Below are positions 15,662 through 27,682 of a stretch of 64,000 nt of DNA, piece after piece. The notes below the pieces were generated by a model. That model made no database searches, was not told the DNA's origin, and worked only from the letters and a program-made list of their open reading frames with translations. The stretch comes from Deltaproteobacteria bacterium (GTDB taxonomy: Bacteria; Desulfobacterota; Deferrimicrobia; Deferrimicrobiales; Deferrimicrobiaceae). The DNA lies in assembly GCA_016218975.1 (NCBI GenBank), contig JACRCO010000037.1, positions 62,001 through 126,000 on the forward strand, written 5' to 3'. Every line of letters starts with the position of its first letter. The first letter of the stretch is position 1. Both the position numbers and the translations under genes were made by a program.

Positions 15662-15670
15662 CAAAAAATT

Positions 15671-16984
15671 ATGTCGAGACGGGTGTACATAGAAACGTTC
15701 GGCTGCCAGATGAACGAGGTCGACTCCGCGCGAATGCTATCGCTGCTGGAAAAGGTGGATTACACCACCGCCTCCTCCGTCGCGGAGGCCGATCTCGTCC
15801 TGCTGAACACTTGCAGCATACGGGAAAAAGCCGACCAGAAGATCTACAGCGCGCTCGGCAGATTGCGAAGGTGGAAAAGGGCGCGGCACGGCAGGATCGT
15901 CGCGGTGGGAGGGTGCCTGGCGCAGCAGGAGGGAGCGGCGCTCACGGTGAGGGCTCCCTACGTGGACATCGTCTTCGGGACACACAACATCTCACGGCTT
16001 CCGGAACTTGTACGGAAGGCGGAAAATGCGATCCCTTCCATGGAAACCGATTTCACGGAAAACACTGCCCATTGGGATGTCCTGCCGTACCTTCCCGAAG
16101 GGGCGTCCAGCGCCATGGTGACCATAATGCAGGGATGCGAGAACTATTGCGCCTATTGCATCGTCCCATATGTGAGAGGGAAGGAGATCAGCCGGCCGGC
16201 GTCCGGGGTTCTGGAAGATGTCCGGAAACTCGCCGATCGCGGCGTGGCGGAAGTCGTGCTGCTGGGGCAGAATGTGAACTCGTACGGTAAAAGAGAAGGG
16301 GAGATCGGTTTCTCCGAACTGGTGCGCCGGATGTCCGAAGTGCCCGGAATCGAGAGAATCCGTTTCATCACTTCGCATCCGCGCGATCTCGGCGCGGATA
16401 CGATCGCCCTTTTTTCGGAAATCGAGGCGGTCTGCCCGCACCTGCATCTGCCGGTGCAATCGGGCTCCGACCGGATCCTCGCGGACATGGGGAGAGGATA
16501 CACACGGAACGGGTATCTGAAAAAGATCGATGCGCTGCGCAGGGCAAGGCCCGGACTCGCATTCTCTTCCGATTTCATTGTCGGTTTCCCGGGCGAAACG
16601 GAAAAGGATTTCGAGGACACTATCGATCTGATGGAAGAAGTCCGGTTCGACTCCGCATTCTCTTTCCGGTTCTCCCCGCGGGCCGGGACCCGGGCGGCCT
16701 CGATGCCGGGCGCAGTTCCGGCGGAAACGGCGGGGAACCGGCTCCGCAGGCTGCAACAGCTCCAGTCACGGCACACATGCGAACAGCTGTCGGAATGCGT
16801 AGGCAGGGAGATGGATGTCCTTGTCGAGGGTCCGAGCCTGAAGGATGAAACGATGCTCTGCGGTCGAACGGAATGCTACAAGATGGTCAACTTTTCACCA
16901 ATGGAATCCCGGCCGGGACCGATCCGGCGCGTACGGATCCGGACAGCCGGAGCCCATTCCCTTTCGGGAGTGGAAGGAGCCTGA
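15671..16984 (+). CDS. miaB: tRNA-2-methylthio-N6-dimethylallyladenosine synthase
   Basis: A 437-residue radical SAM methylthiotransferase that adds the 2-methylthio group to i6A37 of tRNA. The N-terminal domain has the three cysteines of the auxiliary [4Fe-4S] cluster (Cys12, Cys48, Cys82). The radical SAM cysteines are Cys156, Cys160 and Cys163 (CENYCAYC). A TRAM domain ends the protein. The start at ATG 15671 begins the family-typical N-terminus, and in-frame sequence upstream belongs to the CoA-transferase region. It heads a run of plus-strand genes ending with the GH57 gene. Confidence 0.95.
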   Translation: MSRRVYIETFGCQMNEVDSARMLSLLEKVDYTTASSVAEADLVLLNTCSIREKADQKIYSALGRLRRWKRARHGRIVAVGGCLAQQEGAALTVRAPYVDIVFGTHNISRLPELVRKAENAIPSMETDFTENTAHWDVLPYLPEGASSAMVTIMQGCENYCAYCIVPYVRGKEISRPASGVLEDVRKLADRGVAEVVLLGQNVNSYGKREGEIGFSELVRRMSEVPGIERIRFITSHPRDLGADTIALFSEIEAVCPHLHLPVQSGSDRILADMGRGYTRNGYLKKIDALRRARPGLAFSSDFIVGFPGETEKDFEDTIDLMEEVRFDSAFSFRFSPRAGTRAASMPGAVPAETAGNRLRRLQQLQSRHTCEQLSECVGREMDVLVEGPSLKDETMLCGRTECYKMVNFSPMESRPGPIRRVRIRTAGAHSLSGVEGA

Positions 16985-16985
16985 C

Positions 16986-17471
16986 ATGGCCAAGGAAATG
17001 CAGGTCGTCGGAATAACGGTCGATCCCGCCACGCAGTCGCCGATCGTAATATTGCGGGATGCGGAAAACAATCACATACTCCCCATCTGGATCGGCATCC
17101 TGGAAGCGAATGCGATCGCCGTCGGGCTGGAAAAGGTGAGGCTTCCAAGGCCCATGACCCACGACCTCTTCAAAAACGTGCTGGACACGCTTGAAATCCG
17201 TCTCGTGAAAGTGGAGGTGACCGACATCAAGGACAACACCTACTACGCGGAGCTTCACCTCGACGCCGGGGGGAAGCCCATGGTGGTGGACTCCCGTCCC
17301 AGCGACGCGATCGCGATAGCGTTGCGCCTCGGATGTCCTATCCTCGTCCACGATACGGTCATCGATAAAGCGGTGCGAATCGACGCCTCCGTTTCGAGCG
17401 CCGACAAGGACAAGTGGACGGAGCTTCTCGAAAAGATGGACCCGGAAGACTTCAGCAAGTACAAGATGTAG
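16986..17471 (+). CDS. Bifunctional nuclease-family protein (DUF151)
   Basis: A 161-residue protein of the bifunctional nuclease (BFN/DUF151) family. The family core is visible: LPIWIGILEANAIA near residue 35 and SRPSDAIAIALRLGCPILV near residue 100. A UVR-like tail is missing, so this is the short form. It begins one base after the miaB stop with an AGGAG site inside the end of miaB. This gene is commonly found beside miaB in deltaproteobacteria. Its physiological role is not established. Confidence 0.85.
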   Translation: MAKEMQVVGITVDPATQSPIVILRDAENNHILPIWIGILEANAIAVGLEKVRLPRPMTHDLFKNVLDTLEIRLVKVEVTDIKDNTYYAELHLDAGGKPMVVDSRPSDAIAIALRLGCPILVHDTVIDKAVRIDASVSSADKDKWTELLEKMDPEDFSKYKM

Positions 17472-17481
17472 CCGCCCCGGA

Positions 17482-18480
17482 ATGACTGAGGTACGGATAC
17501 AGGCAGTGCGGGATCCCGAATCCCGAGCCTATTCCGCGGCGTACCTTGCGGAAGCCTTCGAAAGGGAGCGGGGAAAGGCGGTCCGCTTCCGCCGTCCTCT
17601 CTCGCTCGTGTTCCTCGCGATCGACGGAGGCGGATTCCCGCCGGAAACCGTGCGGGACCACCGGGCCCCGGAAACGCTGGCTTGCATGGTGGAGGAACTC
17701 CGGAAAACGTTTCGAGGTTCCGACTTCATCGCCCGATTCGCACACGACCGCTTCTGCGTCGTGCTGCCGGAGACGGACCGCTTCGGCTCGGTGCTCGCGA
17801 TCAGGCGATTGAGAAAGACGGTCCGGGAAATGGAGATCTTCCGGTTTCCGGGCAGGAAGCTGGATCTCGATCCCGTATTTGCTCCGGCCACCTGGCCCTT
17901 GGAAGGGGAAAGCTTCGCGGACCTGTATAGATCGGCCGAAAACAAGCTCCTGCGCAGGCGGGAAAGCCCGCTTCACAGGCTTCGTCTCGAAGGGAAAACG
18001 TTTTGGGAAGCCTGCCGCCTCCTTGCGAGCGGAGCGGATGTGTCCCCGGCACAGGGGAGAAGCGGGCGATTTTCGCTGCACAGGAGAGCCTACCTTCGCC
18101 TGGTGGAGGCCATCGCCCAGGATGTTTGCGCCATAGGGGACTCCAGGGCTATCGTGATCGCCGCCGGTCCACGGCCTGAAATCTTCAAGCAGATCTGCCT
18201 CTCCTTCAATCCCGGCGGACCGGAACGATGCGCGATCCGGATCGTGGGGAGGTCCTGCGAAACACCTCCGGATGACGGGAACATGACTCATTTTTACATC
18301 GACGACGAAGCGCTCGAGGAAAATGAATTTCTCCTGTACCGGAGAGAAAACGGGGCATACGGAATTTTCGCTGCGGTACAAGGTGAAGAAGTGCGCGGAT
18401 TTCATTCCGCGGATGAGTGGCTGGTGGATGCCATGACGGAGAAGCTGCAGGAAACCTACCCGTCCCTGGGAACCCATTAG
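17482..18480 (+). CDS. Degenerate GGDEF-domain protein of unknown function
   Basis: A 332-residue soluble protein. Residues about 20-165 follow the order of a GGDEF domain (PLSLVFLAIDGG, GSDFIARFAHDRFCVVLPET). The catalytic GG[D/E]EF is replaced by AHDRF, and the metal-binding Asp of the first loop lies in an altered context, so it should not make cyclic di-GMP. Residues about 190-332 form a second globular domain that I do not recognise, ending in FHSADEWLVDAM. It sits directly before a degenerate receiver protein, suggesting the two work together without classical signalling chemistry. Confidence 0.65.
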   Translation: MTEVRIQAVRDPESRAYSAAYLAEAFERERGKAVRFRRPLSLVFLAIDGGGFPPETVRDHRAPETLACMVEELRKTFRGSDFIARFAHDRFCVVLPETDRFGSVLAIRRLRKTVREMEIFRFPGRKLDLDPVFAPATWPLEGESFADLYRSAENKLLRRRESPLHRLRLEGKTFWEACRLLASGADVSPAQGRSGRFSLHRRAYLRLVEAIAQDVCAIGDSRAIVIAAGPRPEIFKQICLSFNPGGPERCAIRIVGRSCETPPDDGNMTHFYIDDEALEENEFLLYRRENGAYGIFAAVQGEEVRGFHSADEWLVDAMTEKLQETYPSLGTH

Positions 18481-18492
18481 GGAGCCGCCGCG

Positions 18493-19479
18493 ATGAGCGC
18501 TTCCGCTGCGGCGAAAAAAATCCTCGTCGCCGATCCCTCCGGCGATTCGAGGCGGTCTCTATCCGTTTTCCTGCGAGGCAAAGGATTGGAAATCATCGAA
18601 GCGCAGGACGGCGGCATGGCCCTTTCCGTCGTGCTTCAAAACCTTCCCGACATGTTGATCCTCGACCTTTCCCTGGGTGTCCTGCCGCCCGACCGGCTTG
18701 TCCGGATCCTCCGGGCCAACCCGAACACGGACGGCATCCCGGTCTTTTATCTCGGCGACCGGAACGAGGGCATCGCCGGATTCCGGCCGGAACTCGACGG
18801 ATTCCTTCGCAGGCCATTCGAGGAGGAGGACCTTTTCGCGAGGATGCGCCGCGTACTTTTTCCGGCCATGCCGGCCGAGCGGGAGCTGGTCTCCCTCGAA
18901 GACCTTGCGCGCCTGCGCGCCCGCAGGGAGGAACGATCCGAATACGGCGACGGATCGATCGAACGCATCGTCTATTTCTTTCCCGATCCTCCGTATCTGG
19001 AAGCGTGTGTCAAGGCGCTCGCCGCGTTTCGCGAATTCGAGCCGGAAATCTCCTATTTCGCGCTGCGGCGTGACGGGGATTTCCCCCTCGGCGCATTCGG
19101 ACGGATACGGGACGGCGAGGAGACCGCGTTGCTGCTCTACGCGTTTCCCTGCATGCGGTACGCTTCGCCGGTCTGGCATGCGGTCGCCGCCCGTCCCATC
19201 GGAGTGGTCGGCTTTTTCAGGGAGGAAGCGGCCGATTCGCTCGATGAGTTGATGGCGGTTTCCGAATACGCGGGGGATTCCGGGGCGGGCTGCATGCTGG
19301 CGGCGATCGAGCGCACAGGCGCCGGGATCGGGCTGGGAAGGAACACGATCAGCCTGTTCCGGAACCACGTCGAAAAACGGGGGGGGATCCTCAAGGTGCA
19401 GGAGATGGAGCGGCTGTCCTCCGAAGAAATCCGGCGCGCGACCGCGTCCGTCGTCCGCCACCACTTCAGGGAGAGATGA
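18493..19479 (+). CDS. Response-regulator-like protein with degenerate receiver and an unusual C-terminal domain
   Basis: A 328-residue protein. Residues 8-120 form a receiver fold with the phosphoacceptor-position Asp58 (LILDLS). Only one acidic residue (Asp14) is clear in the first loop, the switch Thr/Ser is lost (FYLGD), and the conserved Lys is Arg (FLRRPF), so phosphotransfer is doubtful. Residues about 160-328 have a layout reminiscent of a small Ras-like GTPase core without a P-loop (ALLLYAFPCMRYASPVWHA in the region of a G3 loop); this is a weak inference. It has a GGGAG ribosome-binding site, and the gap to the previous gene is 12 bp. Confidence 0.65.
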   Translation: MSASAAAKKILVADPSGDSRRSLSVFLRGKGLEIIEAQDGGMALSVVLQNLPDMLILDLSLGVLPPDRLVRILRANPNTDGIPVFYLGDRNEGIAGFRPELDGFLRRPFEEEDLFARMRRVLFPAMPAERELVSLEDLARLRARREERSEYGDGSIERIVYFFPDPPYLEACVKALAAFREFEPEISYFALRRDGDFPLGAFGRIRDGEETALLLYAFPCMRYASPVWHAVAARPIGVVGFFREEAADSLDELMAVSEYAGDSGAGCMLAAIERTGAGIGLGRNTISLFRNHVEKRGGILKVQEMERLSSEEIRRATASVVRHHFRER

Positions 19480-19480
19480 A

Positions 19481-20128
19481 ATGATAGACCTTCACATGCA
19501 TTCCACCTTCAGCGACGGGGAGCTAATTCCGTCCGAAGTGGTATCCAGGGCGTTGCATGCGGGTTACACCCATCTTGCCATCACGGACCACGCGGACCCA
19601 TCCAACATGGAACATGTGCTGAACGGCATGCTGCTCGTATGCGCCGAACTCCAGGGGAAGGTGGGCGCCAAGGTATATCCCGGAGTGGAGATAACCCACG
19701 TGCCCCCCCGGCTGATCGCGCCTCTCGTCGGACTGGCTCGGCGGAAAGGCGCAAAGGTCGTGATCGTGCACGGTGAAACGATCGTGGAGCCGGTCCCGAA
19801 AGGGACCAACCTGGCCGCGATACGGGCGGGAGCCGACATCCTGGCCCATCCCGGGCTGATAACGGAGAAAGAGGTCGTGCTGGCCGGGAAAAACGGCGTC
19901 CTGCTCGAGATCACCGCACGCCGCGGGCACTCGTTGACGAACGGACACGTCGCACGATTGGCGGCGAAACACGGAGCCCGCATGGTGTACAATACCGATT
20001 CGCATTCCCCGGGCGACTTCACCCCGTGGGAAACGGCCTTGAGGATCGTCAGGGGCGCGGGTCTCACAGCGGCGGATGCCGGGCGAATGCAGAAAAACGC
20101 GCTGGAACTCCTGGAAGGAAAAAGATAA
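19481..20128 (+). CDS. PHP-domain phosphoesterase
   Basis: A 215-residue protein of the polymerase and histidinol phosphatase (PHP) superfamily. The N-terminal metal-binding HMHSTFSDGE and the ITDHAD motif are present, as are later metal ligands in VIVHGE, ILAHPG and NTDSHS. It is histidinol-phosphatase-like in length but could be any small phosphoester hydrolase. A GGGAGAG site precedes the ATG, one base after the previous stop, so it is tightly coupled to the receiver-like gene. Confidence 0.85.
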   Translation: MIDLHMHSTFSDGELIPSEVVSRALHAGYTHLAITDHADPSNMEHVLNGMLLVCAELQGKVGAKVYPGVEITHVPPRLIAPLVGLARRKGAKVVIVHGETIVEPVPKGTNLAAIRAGADILAHPGLITEKEVVLAGKNGVLLEITARRGHSLTNGHVARLAAKHGARMVYNTDSHSPGDFTPWETALRIVRGAGLTAADAGRMQKNALELLEGKR

Positions 20129-20140
20129 AGGGGACATCGG

Positions 20141-20839
20141 ATGGCGGAGAAAATAAAGTACACCCGCAAGGACCTTAAAAGTCCCGACGAATTCCTGTCG
20201 GCGTTCAGCCGCGCGGTCGAATGGACGAGGGAAAACCGCACGAAAGTGCTGGCGGGCGTACTCGGCATTCTACTCGCGGTCGGGGGGGTCTTCGGCGCCC
20301 AGGCGTATTATCGCTGGGAGGAGAACAAGGCTACCCGCGCCCTTTGGCCGCACCTCAACCGCGCACGTGAATTCCTGCAGGCTCCCCAGGCTGTAGACGC
20401 GGAGAAATTGATGCGGCTGGAGCAGTTCCTGACCGCGCACGTCAACTCGCATCCCGGGACCGCTGCGGCCGTCTATGCGCGGTATTACCTCGGAAGCATC
20501 GCTTTCCTGCGGGGCGATTACAGCCTGAGCGAGGCGCATTACCGCGCGGCGATCCGGACGGGCAAGGCGAAGGAAATCATGCCGTATCTCCTTGGAACCG
20601 GGCTGGCGCATGCCCTGGAGGCCAAGGGAGATTATGCCGCAGCCGCGGCCGCCTACCGGGACGCCGCGGGGATGGCCGGGGGAGCGCTGAAGACGCAGGC
20701 GCAGATCGGCCAGGCGCGGTCGACGGAGCTTGCCGGCAAAAAGCAGGAGGCGGTCGCGTTGTACCGCCAGATCCTTTCGGAAGCAGCCGATCCGCAGATC
20801 AAGGAGTTCGTCGAACTCAAGCTTGCCCGGGCGGAATAG
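20141..20839 (+). CDS. Membrane-anchored tetratricopeptide-like protein (YfgM-type)
   Basis: A 232-residue protein with a short basic cytoplasmic N-terminus and a single membrane helix at about residues 37-56. The helical extracytoplasmic part resembles TPR repeats (YYLGSIAFLRGDYSLSEAHYRAAI, then AHALEAKGDYAAAAAAYRDAA). YfgM-type proteins act as periplasmic scaffolds or chaperone partners at the translocon or at BamB. No enzymatic motif is seen. It lies between the PHP and GH57 genes with short gaps. Confidence 0.75.
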   Translation: MAEKIKYTRKDLKSPDEFLSAFSRAVEWTRENRTKVLAGVLGILLAVGGVFGAQAYYRWEENKATRALWPHLNRAREFLQAPQAVDAEKLMRLEQFLTAHVNSHPGTAAAVYARYYLGSIAFLRGDYSLSEAHYRAAIRTGKAKEIMPYLLGTGLAHALEAKGDYAAAAAAYRDAAGMAGGALKTQAQIGQARSTELAGKKQEAVALYRQILSEAADPQIKEFVELKLARAE

Positions 20840-20860: not shown

Positions 20861-23119
20861 ATGAAAGTCTACGTCTGCTTTCTCTGGCACATGCACCAGC
20901 CGTATTACAAGGACCCGGAAACCGGGACCTATATCCTTCCATGGGTCCGCCTCCACGCGATAAAGGACTACGTGGCGCTCCCCAGGATCTTCCGGCAATC
21001 CCCCGACATCCACCACACGATGAACCTCGTCCCGTCCCTGCTCGTGCAGTTGCGCGATTACGTGGAGAACGGGGCGGAGGACATCTTCCTTTCCGTATCG
21101 CGAAAGAACGCACTGGACCTTTCCCGGGAGGAAGAGGAATTCCTGCTGAAAAATTTCTTTTCGGCCTTCCCTCCCACGATGATCCTCCCGCAGCCCCGTT
21201 ACGCCGACCTGTACCAGCGCCAGGAAGACGCGCGCCGGGCCGTCAGGAAGCCGGGCGCGCCGGGAGGATTCGGGGCGTCCGAATATACCGATCTCATGAC
21301 GCTGTTCAACCTGACGTGGTTCCATCCGATGTTGCGGGAAGAGGACGCGGAGCTCACCAGGCTGTGGGCGAAAGGAAGGGGATACACCGAGCGGGAAAAG
21401 GAGTATGTCCTCGACAAGCAGATCGAGGTCATGTCCACGGTGATCCCCGAGTACCGCAAACTCGCGGAAGAAAGCGGAGGAGAACTGTCCTCCACGCCGA
21501 TGTACCATCCGATCCTGCCGCTTGTCATCGATACGAATTCCGCGAGGGATGCAAGGCCTGACGCTCCGCTTCCCAAATTGCCGTTCGCCTATCCCGAAGA
21601 TGCCTTGGGACAGTTGAAAGAAGGACGTGAAGCATTCCGGTCGATGTTCGGAGGGTACCCGGCAGGGTTGTGGCCTTCGGAAGGGTCTATAAGTCCGGCC
21701 GCGCTGGAGCTCGCCGCCCGCGCGGGTTTCCGATGGGCCGCCACCGACGAGGGGCTCCTCGCGAAATCCTTGAAGAAAGCCATACACAGGGACCATGAAG
21801 GCATACCTGCGGAACCCGAATGGCTGTACCGTCCGTACCGTGCGAACACGCCCGCCGGCCCCCTGCAGCTTTTCTTCCGCGACCACCGGCTTTCCGATCT
21901 TATCGGATTCGAGTATTCGCGCTGGGGGTCTTACGAAGCGGTGGGAGATTTCGTTCGGAAGATCCAGTCGATCTGCCGCAAACTCGCAACCCTCCCATCG
22001 GATAAAAGAAGGGATGCATACACGATCCCGGTGATCCTGGACGGCGAAAATGCCTGGGAATATTATTACGACTCGGGGCGCCTTTTCCTGCGGACTCTCA
22101 TGGACCGGCTCGGGAAGATGGCTCCGGAGGTCAAATGCATCACCTTTAATGAAGCGATGCAAGGAACCGATAACATAGACGATCTTCACCACATTCCGAC
22201 GGGATCCTGGATCGACGGGACGTTCAATATATGGATCGGCCACGAGGAAGACCGGAAAGCCTGGGAATTGCTGGCGCGCGCAAGGGCGTTGTGGGAAATC
22301 CGGCAGGAGCCGTACCGGCGCTCCGGCCGTGAACTTACGCCGCAGTTGGCGAAAGCGCGGGAGCACCTTTTCGTAGCGGAAGGGTCGGATTGGTGCTGGT
22401 GGTACGGAGACGAGCACTTCACTCCGCACGGACCCGAATTCGACCGGCTCTTCCGGAACCATCTGAAAGCGGCATACCGCGAGATGGGGGAGACCTCTCC
22501 CGACGCGCTCGACATTCCCATCATCCACGCGGAGAGGCTTCCGGCGAAAACCAGCTACCTGCAAAGCCCAATGACTTACCTGCAACCGCGGATCAACGGA
22601 ATCATCGACTCCTACTTCGAGTGGAGCGGGGCCACGCGTTACGTTCCCAATCCGGGCTTCGGCGCCATGCACAGGGCCGGCCACGGGATCCTCGCCTGCC
22701 TGTATTACGGTTTCGACAAGACCAGCCTTTATTTCCGGGCCGATTTCATCCCTTCCGCGCTCGAATCCGAGTCGCCGATCGAGGTCGAATTCCTGTTCCC
22801 GAAGAAAGACAGGAAAATATCGCTGGTCGTCGGACCGTCCGATTTTACGCTTGGCCTGTCTGCCGGAACGATCGAGGAAGTCCCGGCGGAAAAGGAAAAG
22901 GTTACCGGACTCCGGCCGGAAACCATCACCGCAGCTTTCCAGAAGGTCCTCGAGCTGGGAATACCGTTCCTCCTGCTTCGCTCGGACGGAGACGAAAAGA
23001 TCGAATTCTTCATTACGCTTTCAGGGCTGGGATTGATAGGGGAGCGTTGGCCTATGTACGGCACCTTCACGGCCGAGCTCCCCGGCGAGGATTTCGAAGA
23101 GAGGATGTGGGAAGTTTAA
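20861..23119 (+). CDS. Glycoside hydrolase family 57 protein
   Basis: A 752-residue cytoplasmic GH57 enzyme (alpha-glucan hydrolase or transferase). The N-terminus FLWHMHQPYY is the first conserved GH57 motif. Glu274 in GLWPSEGS is the expected nucleophile, and VILDGENAWEYY near residue 390 carries the acid/base Asp. The C-terminal third is an additional beta-rich domain common in deltaproteobacterial members. There is no signal peptide, so it acts on intracellular glycogen-like polymers. It ends exactly where the convergent outer-membrane gene ends, with no bases between the two stop codons. Confidence 0.9.
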   Translation: MKVYVCFLWHMHQPYYKDPETGTYILPWVRLHAIKDYVALPRIFRQSPDIHHTMNLVPSLLVQLRDYVENGAEDIFLSVSRKNALDLSREEEEFLLKNFFSAFPPTMILPQPRYADLYQRQEDARRAVRKPGAPGGFGASEYTDLMTLFNLTWFHPMLREEDAELTRLWAKGRGYTEREKEYVLDKQIEVMSTVIPEYRKLAEESGGELSSTPMYHPILPLVIDTNSARDARPDAPLPKLPFAYPEDALGQLKEGREAFRSMFGGYPAGLWPSEGSISPAALELAARAGFRWAATDEGLLAKSLKKAIHRDHEGIPAEPEWLYRPYRANTPAGPLQLFFRDHRLSDLIGFEYSRWGSYEAVGDFVRKIQSICRKLATLPSDKRRDAYTIPVILDGENAWEYYYDSGRLFLRTLMDRLGKMAPEVKCITFNEAMQGTDNIDDLHHIPTGSWIDGTFNIWIGHEEDRKAWELLARARALWEIRQEPYRRSGRELTPQLAKAREHLFVAEGSDWCWWYGDEHFTPHGPEFDRLFRNHLKAAYREMGETSPDALDIPIIHAERLPAKTSYLQSPMTYLQPRINGIIDSYFEWSGATRYVPNPGFGAMHRAGHGILACLYYGFDKTSLYFRADFIPSALESESPIEVEFLFPKKDRKISLVVGPSDFTLGLSAGTIEEVPAEKEKVTGLRPETITAAFQKVLELGIPFLLLRSDGDEKIEFFITLSGLGLIGERWPMYGTFTAELPGEDFEERMWEV

Positions 23120-26151: not shown

Positions 26152-27682
26152 GGGCCTTGACGACCACGCGGTTTTTCCCGGCGCTCTTCGCGCTGTAGGC
26201 GGCCTCGTCGGCGTACCGGACGAGCTGGTCTTCCGTGGCCGCTCCCTCTTCCGCAGTGTATATTCCGATGCTTACCGTGAGATGCACCTCTCCCGGCACC
26301 TGGGGAAGGAAATCATGCCTGGCCACTTCCGTCTTGATGCGCTCCGCCAGCATGAGCGCCCCGGCGGATGTCGACTCCGGAAGGATGACCGCGAATTCTT
26401 CCCCTCCGTAACGGGCGACGATGTCCGTGGCCCGCGCGCAATTCCTGAGCAGGTCGGATATCTTCCGAAGGGCAAGGTCCCCAGCGAGATGGCCGAAGCT
26501 GTCGTTGAACCTCTTGAAGTCGTCGACGTCGATAATCAGCAGGGAAACGGAATGCCGGTACCGGCGCGCTCTCTCCAGTTCCCGGCGAAGCTGCTGGTAG
26601 AACTCTCGGTGATTGTAGAGGCCGGTCAATCCGTCCGTTATGGACATCTTTCGCATGTTTTCGTGCAGCTCCACCACTTCGAGCGCCATGGAGGCCTCGT
26701 TGGCGAGTGTGACGATCGGGACGACCGTTTCCCTCGACACCTTCCTCGACTCCTCCCGCGTGCGCACCGCCAGCACCGCCGTCTGCGAAAACATTTCGCA
26801 CAGTGCGCAGGCTTTTCGCCGTTCCGGAACGGGGATGGAGGCGTTGGAAACGCAATCCGCGGAGTGCTCCACCCAGCACCGTCCGCTCCTGGAAAGGTAC
26901 GCCGTGCAATCGACGTTTCCGCAGTTTTTCACCTCCGAGCATCTCGCGCCGGTCTTCCTGGAAACGGGAAGAATGAAAAACGCCCCCTCGCCGACGACGA
27001 TCCCGTCCTCGCGGCAATGCGGATTATCCGCGAGCGACCCGGAAAGAATGGAGTTCCCCGACCAGACAGCGCCCGCGAGCAGGGATTCCTCGCTCCATAC
27101 GGGAACCTTGACCACCGACGGACCGGTGGCGATATCGAATTCCTCGTGAAACGCAAGGTATCCGTCCCTGTCTACCACCCCGAGCGTCGCTCCCTGGAAT
27201 CCGAGCCCTTCACGTATTCCTTTCTGCAGTGCGTCGAATACCTCTTCCATCCGGAAAGAGCCGAGCATCTTCTTCGTGCACCGGTGGTGCGTGAGCAGAT
27301 CCTGGTGCATCTTCGCCAGCTCGATAAGACGCTGGTCCTTCATCTGCTGGCGTTCCTGCTTTAGAAGGGCGACTTCAGCCGATAATTGCTCGATCTTGTC
27401 CTTTACCGAATCGGCGAGCCCCATAGGATCGTTCCGGCATGGAATTTCCTCCCCGTGCTCCTTCAATGCATCCGAAAGGAGATCGACGGAATAATCGGCG
27501 GGTTTCAGATACCGCAGGTACATGAGGATGAAGCCGAATGCGGTCATGATGTGCTTTACGGTTTCAGTCGAAGAACGGTCGGAAAATACGAACGAGATGA
27601 ATATCAGTATCAGGACGACCGCCAGGAGAAGGTCGCTTTTTCGACCGGGCGCCGAAAGTTTTTTCCAGACCGGGTTCTTCAC
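26144..27682 (-). CDS. Membrane diguanylate cyclase with GAF domain and Cys/Trp-rich insert
   Basis: A 512-residue GTG-initiated protein. Two hydrophobic segments (about 18-34 and 43-58) anchor it, and a coiled coil follows at about 90-130. A GAF-like sensor at about 140-340 contains an insert with seven cysteines (248, 254, 259, 269, 277, 292, 295), spaced C-x5-C-x4-C, then CW, and ending in CALC. The C-terminal GGDEF domain is intact: GGEEF at 426-430, with the RxxD inhibitory site at 417-420. It should make cyclic di-GMP under feedback control. The cysteine cluster looks like a metal or redox sensor. Confidence 0.88.
   Translation of the reverse strand: MKNPVWKKLSAPGRKSDLLLAVVLILIFISFVFSDRSSTETVKHIMTAFGFILMYLRYLKPADYSVDLLSDALKEHGEEIPCRNDPMGLADSVKDKIEQLSAEVALLKQERQQMKDQRLIELAKMHQDLLTHHRCTKKMLGSFRMEEVFDALQKGIREGLGFQGATLGVVDRDGYLAFHEEFDIATGPSVVKVPVWSEESLLAGAVWSGNSILSGSLADNPHCREDGIVVGEGAFFILPVSRKTGARCSEVKNCGNVDCTAYLSRSGRCWVEHSADCVSNASIPVPERRKACALCEMFSQTAVLAVRTREESRKVSRETVVPIVTLANEASMALEVVELHENMRKMSITDGLTGLYNHREFYQQLRRELERARRYRHSVSLLIIDVDDFKRFNDSFGHLAGDLALRKISDLLRNCARATDIVARYGGEEFAVILPESTSAGALMLAERIKTEVARHDFLPQVPGEVHLTVSIGIYTAEEGAATEDQLVRYADEAAYSAKSAGKNRVVVKAHV

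Follow-up and report, generated by a model that had tools for sequence, protein, structure and literature searches.

Two adjacent genes, here termed A and B, were analyzed in a 64,000-nucleotide stretch of a Deltaproteobacteria genome (referred to below as the window). They form an old pair, present in several lineages of the phylum, whose members are gained and lost as a unit. A encodes a protein with a degenerate GGDEF domain that has kept its I-site, and B a protein with an atypical receiver and a C-terminal domain related to Ras/MglA-type GTPases, from which the P-loop is absent. Tentatively, and with slightly less than even confidence, we propose that A is a c-di-GMP receptor and B its pseudo-GTPase output, and that the two constitute one module, perhaps acting on type IV pili. 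Each of the parts is known; as far as could be seen, the pairing, the receiver-PATAN-pseudo-GTPase architecture and the trimming of both proteins described below are new. A search of the literature (mostly open-access) on PATAN, DUF4388, bacterial pseudoGTPases and miaB neighbourhoods revealed, by title, no published description of the A-B pair.

Genetic organization of the A-B locus

As shown in Table 1, A and B are head-to-tail ORFs separated by a 12-base gap, and the gene order in the window is miaB, BFN, A, B, PHP, TPR_21, GH57. The preliminary description of this DNA had recognized the two ORFs, the replacement of GGDEF by AHDRF in A, and a nuclease-like and a PHP gene on either side; all of this was confirmed, the flanking genes being the BFN_dom gene (upstream) and the PHP gene (downstream).

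Table 1. Genes, domains and motifs of the A-B locus (window coordinates).
Feature	Position	Strand	Basis
miaB, conserved upstream neighbour	15668..16984	+	start assigned in this analysis
Gene with a bifunctional nuclease (BFN) domain, conserved upstream neighbour	16977..17471	+	start assigned in this analysis
Gene A, protein of 332 aa with a pseudo-GGDEF domain; trimmed, the REC-like and GAF domains found N-terminally in relatives being absent	17482..18480	+	ORF call, Pfam
GGDEF-like domain of A, residues 21-160	17542..17961	+	Pfam GGDEF; PDB phmmer matches to diguanylate cyclases
I-site motif RGSD of A (R78, D81)	17713..17724	+	RxxD in 35/35 family members with readable GGDEF region
Degenerate GGDEF motif AHDRF of A, residues 87-91	17740..17754	+	
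C-terminal domain of A, kept in all pair genomes, weakly DICT-like	17977..18477	+	alignment A3; 23/198 genomes
Gene B, atypical receiver and predicted pseudo-GTPase protein, 328 aa, trimmed (without DUF4388/PATAN)	18493..19479	+	ORF call, Pfam
Receiver domain of B, residues 10-118; Asp58 present, switch Ser -> Gly, Lys -> Arg	18520..18846	+	
Junction where relatives hold DUF4388/PATAN and a helical tail	18847..18900	+	
C-terminal domain of B, predicted fold of Ras/MglA-type GTPases, P-loop absent	18865..19476 (aligned part about 18961-19458)	+	
Site of the absent P-loop in B; window reads IVYFFPDPPYLEACVKAL (FFPDPPYLE)	18967..19020	+	hhalign alignment
Site of the GTPGQ (G3) motif in B; window reads LLYAFPCMRYASPVW (AFPCMR)	19132..19176	+	hhalign alignment
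PHP-domain phosphoesterase of the PRK06361 type, usually found downstream	19481..20128	+	
TPR_21-type protein, encoded downstream in the own and the sister family	20141..20839	+	
GH57 glycosyl hydrolase family gene, downstream neighbour	20861..23119	+	

The GGDEF-like domain of A was matched by Pfam GGDEF with 31.2 bits (cut-off 23.8), and the NCBIfam GGDEF model also scored above its cut-off. The receiver of B was matched by Pfam Response_reg with 31.4 bits (cut-off 30.2). No further Pfam match was obtained at E 1 in either window protein; the C-terminal domains, previously reported as unrecognized, therefore stay unmatched by Pfam, and their lengths are about 167 (A) and 204 aa (B), not the approximately 150 residues first given for both. 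Structure prediction of the two C-terminal domains from the single window sequence was uninformative (mean pLDDT 37.6 and 33.9).

Inspection of the receiver of B located Asp58 within ILDLS (residues 56-60) and the acidic pocket at ADP (13-15), which holds a single pocket acid. The Thr/Ser position is occupied by Gly, in FYLGDR (85-90), and the Lys of the Lys-Pro position by Arg, in FLRRPF (104-109); the absence of the switch Thr/Ser and of the Lys had been noted in the preliminary description. The residue set of a phosphorylatable receiver (Asp, acidic pair, switch Thr/Ser, Lys) is incomplete in B of the window.

Distribution, linkage and joint loss

The first survey consisted of whole-protein searches of 59 relatives, in which some copies run off contig ends. 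Both A and B were found in 20 of the 24 genomes of the window's own family and neither in the remaining four (G002, G015, G020, G023); both genomes of the sister family also contain A and B. Two profiles restricted to the C-terminal domains (A3 for A and A4 for B, built from 24 sequences each) were both run against one set of 198 phylum genomes, of which 23 contain A and 24 contain B, with 23 common to both (Fisher p 3.5e-29, not corrected for kinship). The 24th B match comes from G139 and is a true P-loop GTPase in its own right.

By the criterion set in the preliminary description, its reading would fail if the two genes were rarely neighbours elsewhere; the pair withstood this check. Examination of the loci of 11 genomes (window included) and of 12 more revealed that B comes immediately after A, with no change of strand, in 23/23 pair genomes. 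This invariable adjacency, together with the joint absence of the two genes, indicates that A and B come and go as a unit. A scan of viral contigs with the C-terminal profile of A revealed no relative, and a scan of genome contigs with B gave a single weak match, confined to the receiver part.

The surroundings of the pair are also conserved. Of the second group of 12 loci, 10 have miaB and BFN on the upstream side and 11 have PHP on the downstream side, the remainder stopping at contig edges. The order miaB-BFN-A-B-PHP, found in most loci whose contigs permit it, would be expected if the pair regulated the adjacent enzymes (the PHP phosphoesterase, the BFN nuclease and GH57), for example in nucleotide or glycan metabolism, and did not act on pili. 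The loss of PHP along with A and B in two genomes of the family, G015 and G023, points the same way: here miaB, BFN, TPR and GH57 are contiguous, A, B and PHP are jointly absent, and the BFN and TPR matches lie about 90 bases apart. PHP was sought elsewhere in both genomes and not found; the G015 assembly consists of one contig and is 96% complete. However, BFN and miaB persist in these genomes where A and B have vanished, and, conversely, other members of the family have kept A and B at loci from which PHP (six loci: L045, L047, L048, L049, L056, L060) or BFN (three loci: L044, L054, L057) is absent. Regulation of the neighbouring enzymes is therefore considered improbable.

The three loci without BFN belong to one genus, and in them miaB and A remain in place with the gene between them gone. 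The clean absences of A, B and PHP (L223 and L224; G015:C1 and G023:C70) likewise fall within one genus, whose sister species retain A and B, and represent a natural deletion for comparison.

Degenerate domains of A and B and their relatives

The canonical motif GG[DE]EF was found in none of the 35 A proteins with a readable GGDEF region (of 36 in total; L107 is incomplete and lacks this region). It is replaced by EPNRF, ESNRF, SEREI, EDKKI, AHDRF and other variants, which indicates that the loss of the motif is ancestral. The I-site RxxD has been kept in all of these proteins (24/24 and 11/11 in the two sets), and position 31 after the I-site Arg is occupied by Arg in 27 and by Lys in 8 of them. 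Residues E97, T98 and D99 of A are as invariant as RxxD. Judging from the lost motif and the retained I-site, A is probably unable to make c-di-GMP and may bind it via the I-site. For comparison, of the 29 intact GGDEF domains of these genomes that are readable, 27 also have RxxD (30 loci, chosen as the best-scoring ones and not drawn at random). Since the motif is usual in intact GGDEF domains, its retention alone is no proof of use and may reflect inherited structure.

The C-terminal domain of A was presumed, by eye, to resemble the DICT sensory domain. A single one of 19 members was matched by the DICT model (PF10069), with E 0.094 and 13.1 bits (cut-off 23.8), over the last third of the profile, and no DICT domain was found in 59 phylum genomes and 8 plasmid records; the assignment is suggestive only. 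Profile searches of the PDB with the C-terminal domains of both A and B returned chance matches only.

Known c-di-GMP receptors offer a precedent for A. SgmT, a proven receptor with a degenerate A-site, uses R763, D766 and R794 (excerpts of PMC3509222), and BcsE and PelD bind c-di-GMP through RxxD of a degenerate GGDEF domain, to which BcsE adds a degenerate receiver (excerpts of PMC7439463). As described in these excerpts, SgmT, PopA, PelD and BcsE share with A the loss of the GGDEF motif and the RxxD I-site. In SgmT the second Arg (R794) lies at the same +31 spacing and a GAF domain is present, as in full-length A, while the joining of a degenerate receiver to a degenerate GGDEF domain in BcsE recalls the A proteins of relatives. 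Unlike the SgmT-type receptors, as far as the excerpts portray them, A lacks a kinase part, carries an additional C-terminal domain that is conserved, and is tied to a constant partner gene, B. Because A retains the I-site residues used by c-di-GMP receptors, the earlier suggestion of a nucleotide-sensing pair is plausible.

In the receiver of B, most relatives have Ser at the switch position and either Lys or Arg ahead of Pro, with Lys in about half of the relatives; the decay of these two positions in the window protein is therefore mostly recent. Asp58 has been lost in the three most remote B proteins, where it is replaced by G, E and E (L065, L066 and L067, respectively). The view that both proteins have had their chemistry removed thus holds for the window, but as a general statement it requires division: the decay of GGDEF is family-wide, whereas the receiver was not ancestrally dead.

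Although no GTPase had been included in building it, the C-terminal profile of B recovered a small GTPase from G139 at E 5.9e-6. This protein (L091/L158, G139:C9:72147-72677) contains the P-loop GSMGAGKT and the G3 motif GTPGQ and is recognized by Pfam Ras, Arf and ATP_bind_1. In the reverse search, with the G139 GTPase as sole query against 118 genomes (any match in 35), the B proteins of G055 (5.5e-5) and G091 (4.0e-4) were recovered. Comparison by hhalign of the 36 B domains with GTPases gave 96.7% for a first set of three sequences (L159 and L160 being left out) and 95.6% for two GTPases that the B profile had not found, the alignment being collinear and beginning at the first strand and ending at the last helix, with a length of about 158 columns. 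Decoys (A domains, PHP, BFN, TPR, MiaB, GAF, GGDEF, receiver) scored 0.1-0.4% against the B profile, and the C-terminal domain of A scored 1.5-2.9% against the GTPases. A value of 60.8% was obtained for the C-terminal domain of B against the PATAN cut, and is taken as due to a linker common to both cuts. The P-loop, GTPGQ and [NT]KxD are absent from the aligned places in all 36 B domains; one P-loop-like string (L087) and one [NT]KxD (L089) occur near residue 50, away from the G1 and G4 places. On this evidence, the C-terminal domain of B is predicted to be a pseudo-GTPase of the MglA kind, with relatives carrying a GTPGQ-type G3 motif, which gives substance to the likeness to a Ras-type core without a P-loop perceived in the preliminary description.

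The G139 GTPase stands alone, as a relative of the C-terminal domain of B. MglA of the group 1 type was considered as the nearest GTPase and rejected (hhalign 0.3%).

MglA proteins of groups 2-5 have the G3 motif GTPGQ, and some MglA genes have a PATAN gene in their vicinity (excerpts of PMC4316618). GTPases of these groups align end to end with the C-terminal domain of B (hhalign 95.6-96.7%). B differs from MglA, as presented in those excerpts, in having no P-loop, GTPGQ or [NT]KxD in any of the 36 proteins, in its fusion to a response regulator, and in that PATAN is fused to it rather than encoded nearby. A receiver combined with DUF4388/PATAN, as in full-length B, is also found in the PATAN regulators PixE, PixG and LsiR (excerpts of PMC7690835); with respect to these, B is distinguished by the order receiver-PATAN followed by a pseudo-GTPase, and B of the window by having no PATAN. 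FrzS of Myxococcus xanthus, whose receiver is without the critical phosphorylation residues and functions in pilus polarity by contacting other proteins (excerpts of PMC11580455), is comparable to B by description, but has, in the excerpted account, a coiled coil and no GTPase-like domain.

The losses described above also fit a pair that is a pure protein-protein scaffold, in which the GGDEF, receiver and GTPase folds serve as binding surfaces and no nucleotide is sensed: all three catalytic sites have been lost or have decayed, not even Asp58 remains in the most remote B proteins, and RxxD is ordinary GGDEF ancestry. What such a scaffold leaves unexplained is that RxxD has been kept throughout the A proteins while nearby active-site positions vary freely, and we regard this explanation as rather unlikely, though as one to be taken seriously.

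Trimming of the pair and its proposed role

Both window proteins are trimmed versions of REC/GAF/pseudo-GGDEF and REC/PATAN/pseudo-GTPase forms, a feature missed by the preliminary description. The length in most own-family relatives is about 600-620 aa for A and about 515-527 aa for B. The extra N-terminal part of A comprises a region of approximately 100 aa and a GAF domain (GAF model matching 20/24 members of alignment A1), and a clear receiver is present at the N-terminus of A in some distant relatives (1 member of A1 and 4/12 in a second set). The extra part of B is DUF4388/PATAN, located between the receiver and the C-terminal domain and present in 33/36 proteins (21/24 and 12/12). The only B proteins without it are those of the window and of the other own-genus pair holders, G001 and G003, so that its absence is not an assembly error of one genome; all three own-genus copies lack both the GAF-bearing part of A and the PATAN of B.

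Short A proteins (330-360 aa, no GAF) also occur in distant lineages (e.g. L066 and L108-L111), where B has kept PATAN. The input domains of A thus vary independently of B, and GAF has been lost, or gained in other lineages, more than once.

A and B sped up after the trimming. Between the window and G003, PHP is 90% and BFN 87% identical, compared with 50-60% for the four A/B domains; towards the own-genus copies in general, A/B identity per domain is 45-60%, where that of BFN is 83-87% and that of PHP 90%. In two other genera (L052, L053), with PHP at 85%, A and B still show 80-85% identity. The dN/dS values of own-genus A/B window pairs (0.21-0.36) exceed those of BFN, PHP and TPR (0.08-0.13). 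The change from Ser to Gly in the receiver of B falls within this fast phase. Such rates, and the clean loss of the A/B block from two other genomes, might mean that the pair is wearing away in the window's genus, left with little function after the loss of the input domains and PATAN and heading for disappearance. However, the A and B reading frames are intact in 3/3 own-genus pair genomes, dN/dS remains well below 1, indicating a constraint that is weaker but present, and the I-site has been retained; erosion is accordingly thought unlikely. If the proposed reading holds, the genus can be viewed as a natural experiment that reveals which domains the module is able to shed jointly, and hence which of the surfaces left behind would carry the core function.

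Loss of pili as the cause of the loss of PATAN was considered and rejected, since the window's genome contains PilB above cut-off.

According to the reading proposed at the outset, the usual form of the pair would be a single signalling module composed of A (receiver/GAF/pseudo-GGDEF) and B (receiver/PATAN/pseudo-GTPase). A would make no c-di-GMP and would bind it through the I-site in the manner of PelD, BcsE and SgmT; binding would alter how A meets B, and B would relay this change, via PATAN and its nucleotide-free Ras-like domain, to a target that is most likely polar or the type IV pilus. In the window's genus, which has lost the PATAN of B as well as the input domains of A, the module would consist of a pseudo-GGDEF with its C-terminal domain and a receiver with a pseudo-GTPase. 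In total, 18 GGDEF matches were found in the window's genome, so that c-di-GMP is probably made there.

PATAN regulators target the pilus motor PilB in cyanobacteria (excerpts of PMC7690835), and PilB was detected above cut-off in 22 of the 23 pair genomes, compared to 100 of the 175 others (not corrected for kinship); a pilus or pole target is therefore a reasonable guess for full-length B. It is weaker for the short B of the window, because PATAN is gone while PilB remains. The miaB, BFN, PHP and GH57 neighbours give no information on pili.

If this reading is correct, c-di-GMP I-site receptors, PATAN regulators and MglA-type GTPases would be linked in one conserved locus, and a bacterial pseudo-GTPase would be at hand together with its partner and with a ligand open to testing. 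In its most far-reaching version, to which we assign a low probability, the pair would be a phylum-wide switch: a diguanylate cyclase that is itself dead would sense c-di-GMP and control an equally dead Ras-like GTPase, whose state would be set by a bound partner and the messenger and not by GTP, one genus having cut this switch to its core.

An intact GGDEF domain is also encoded approximately 7 kb from the pair, at window positions 26168-26641 on the minus strand (C37:88168-88641, within a 523 aa frame).
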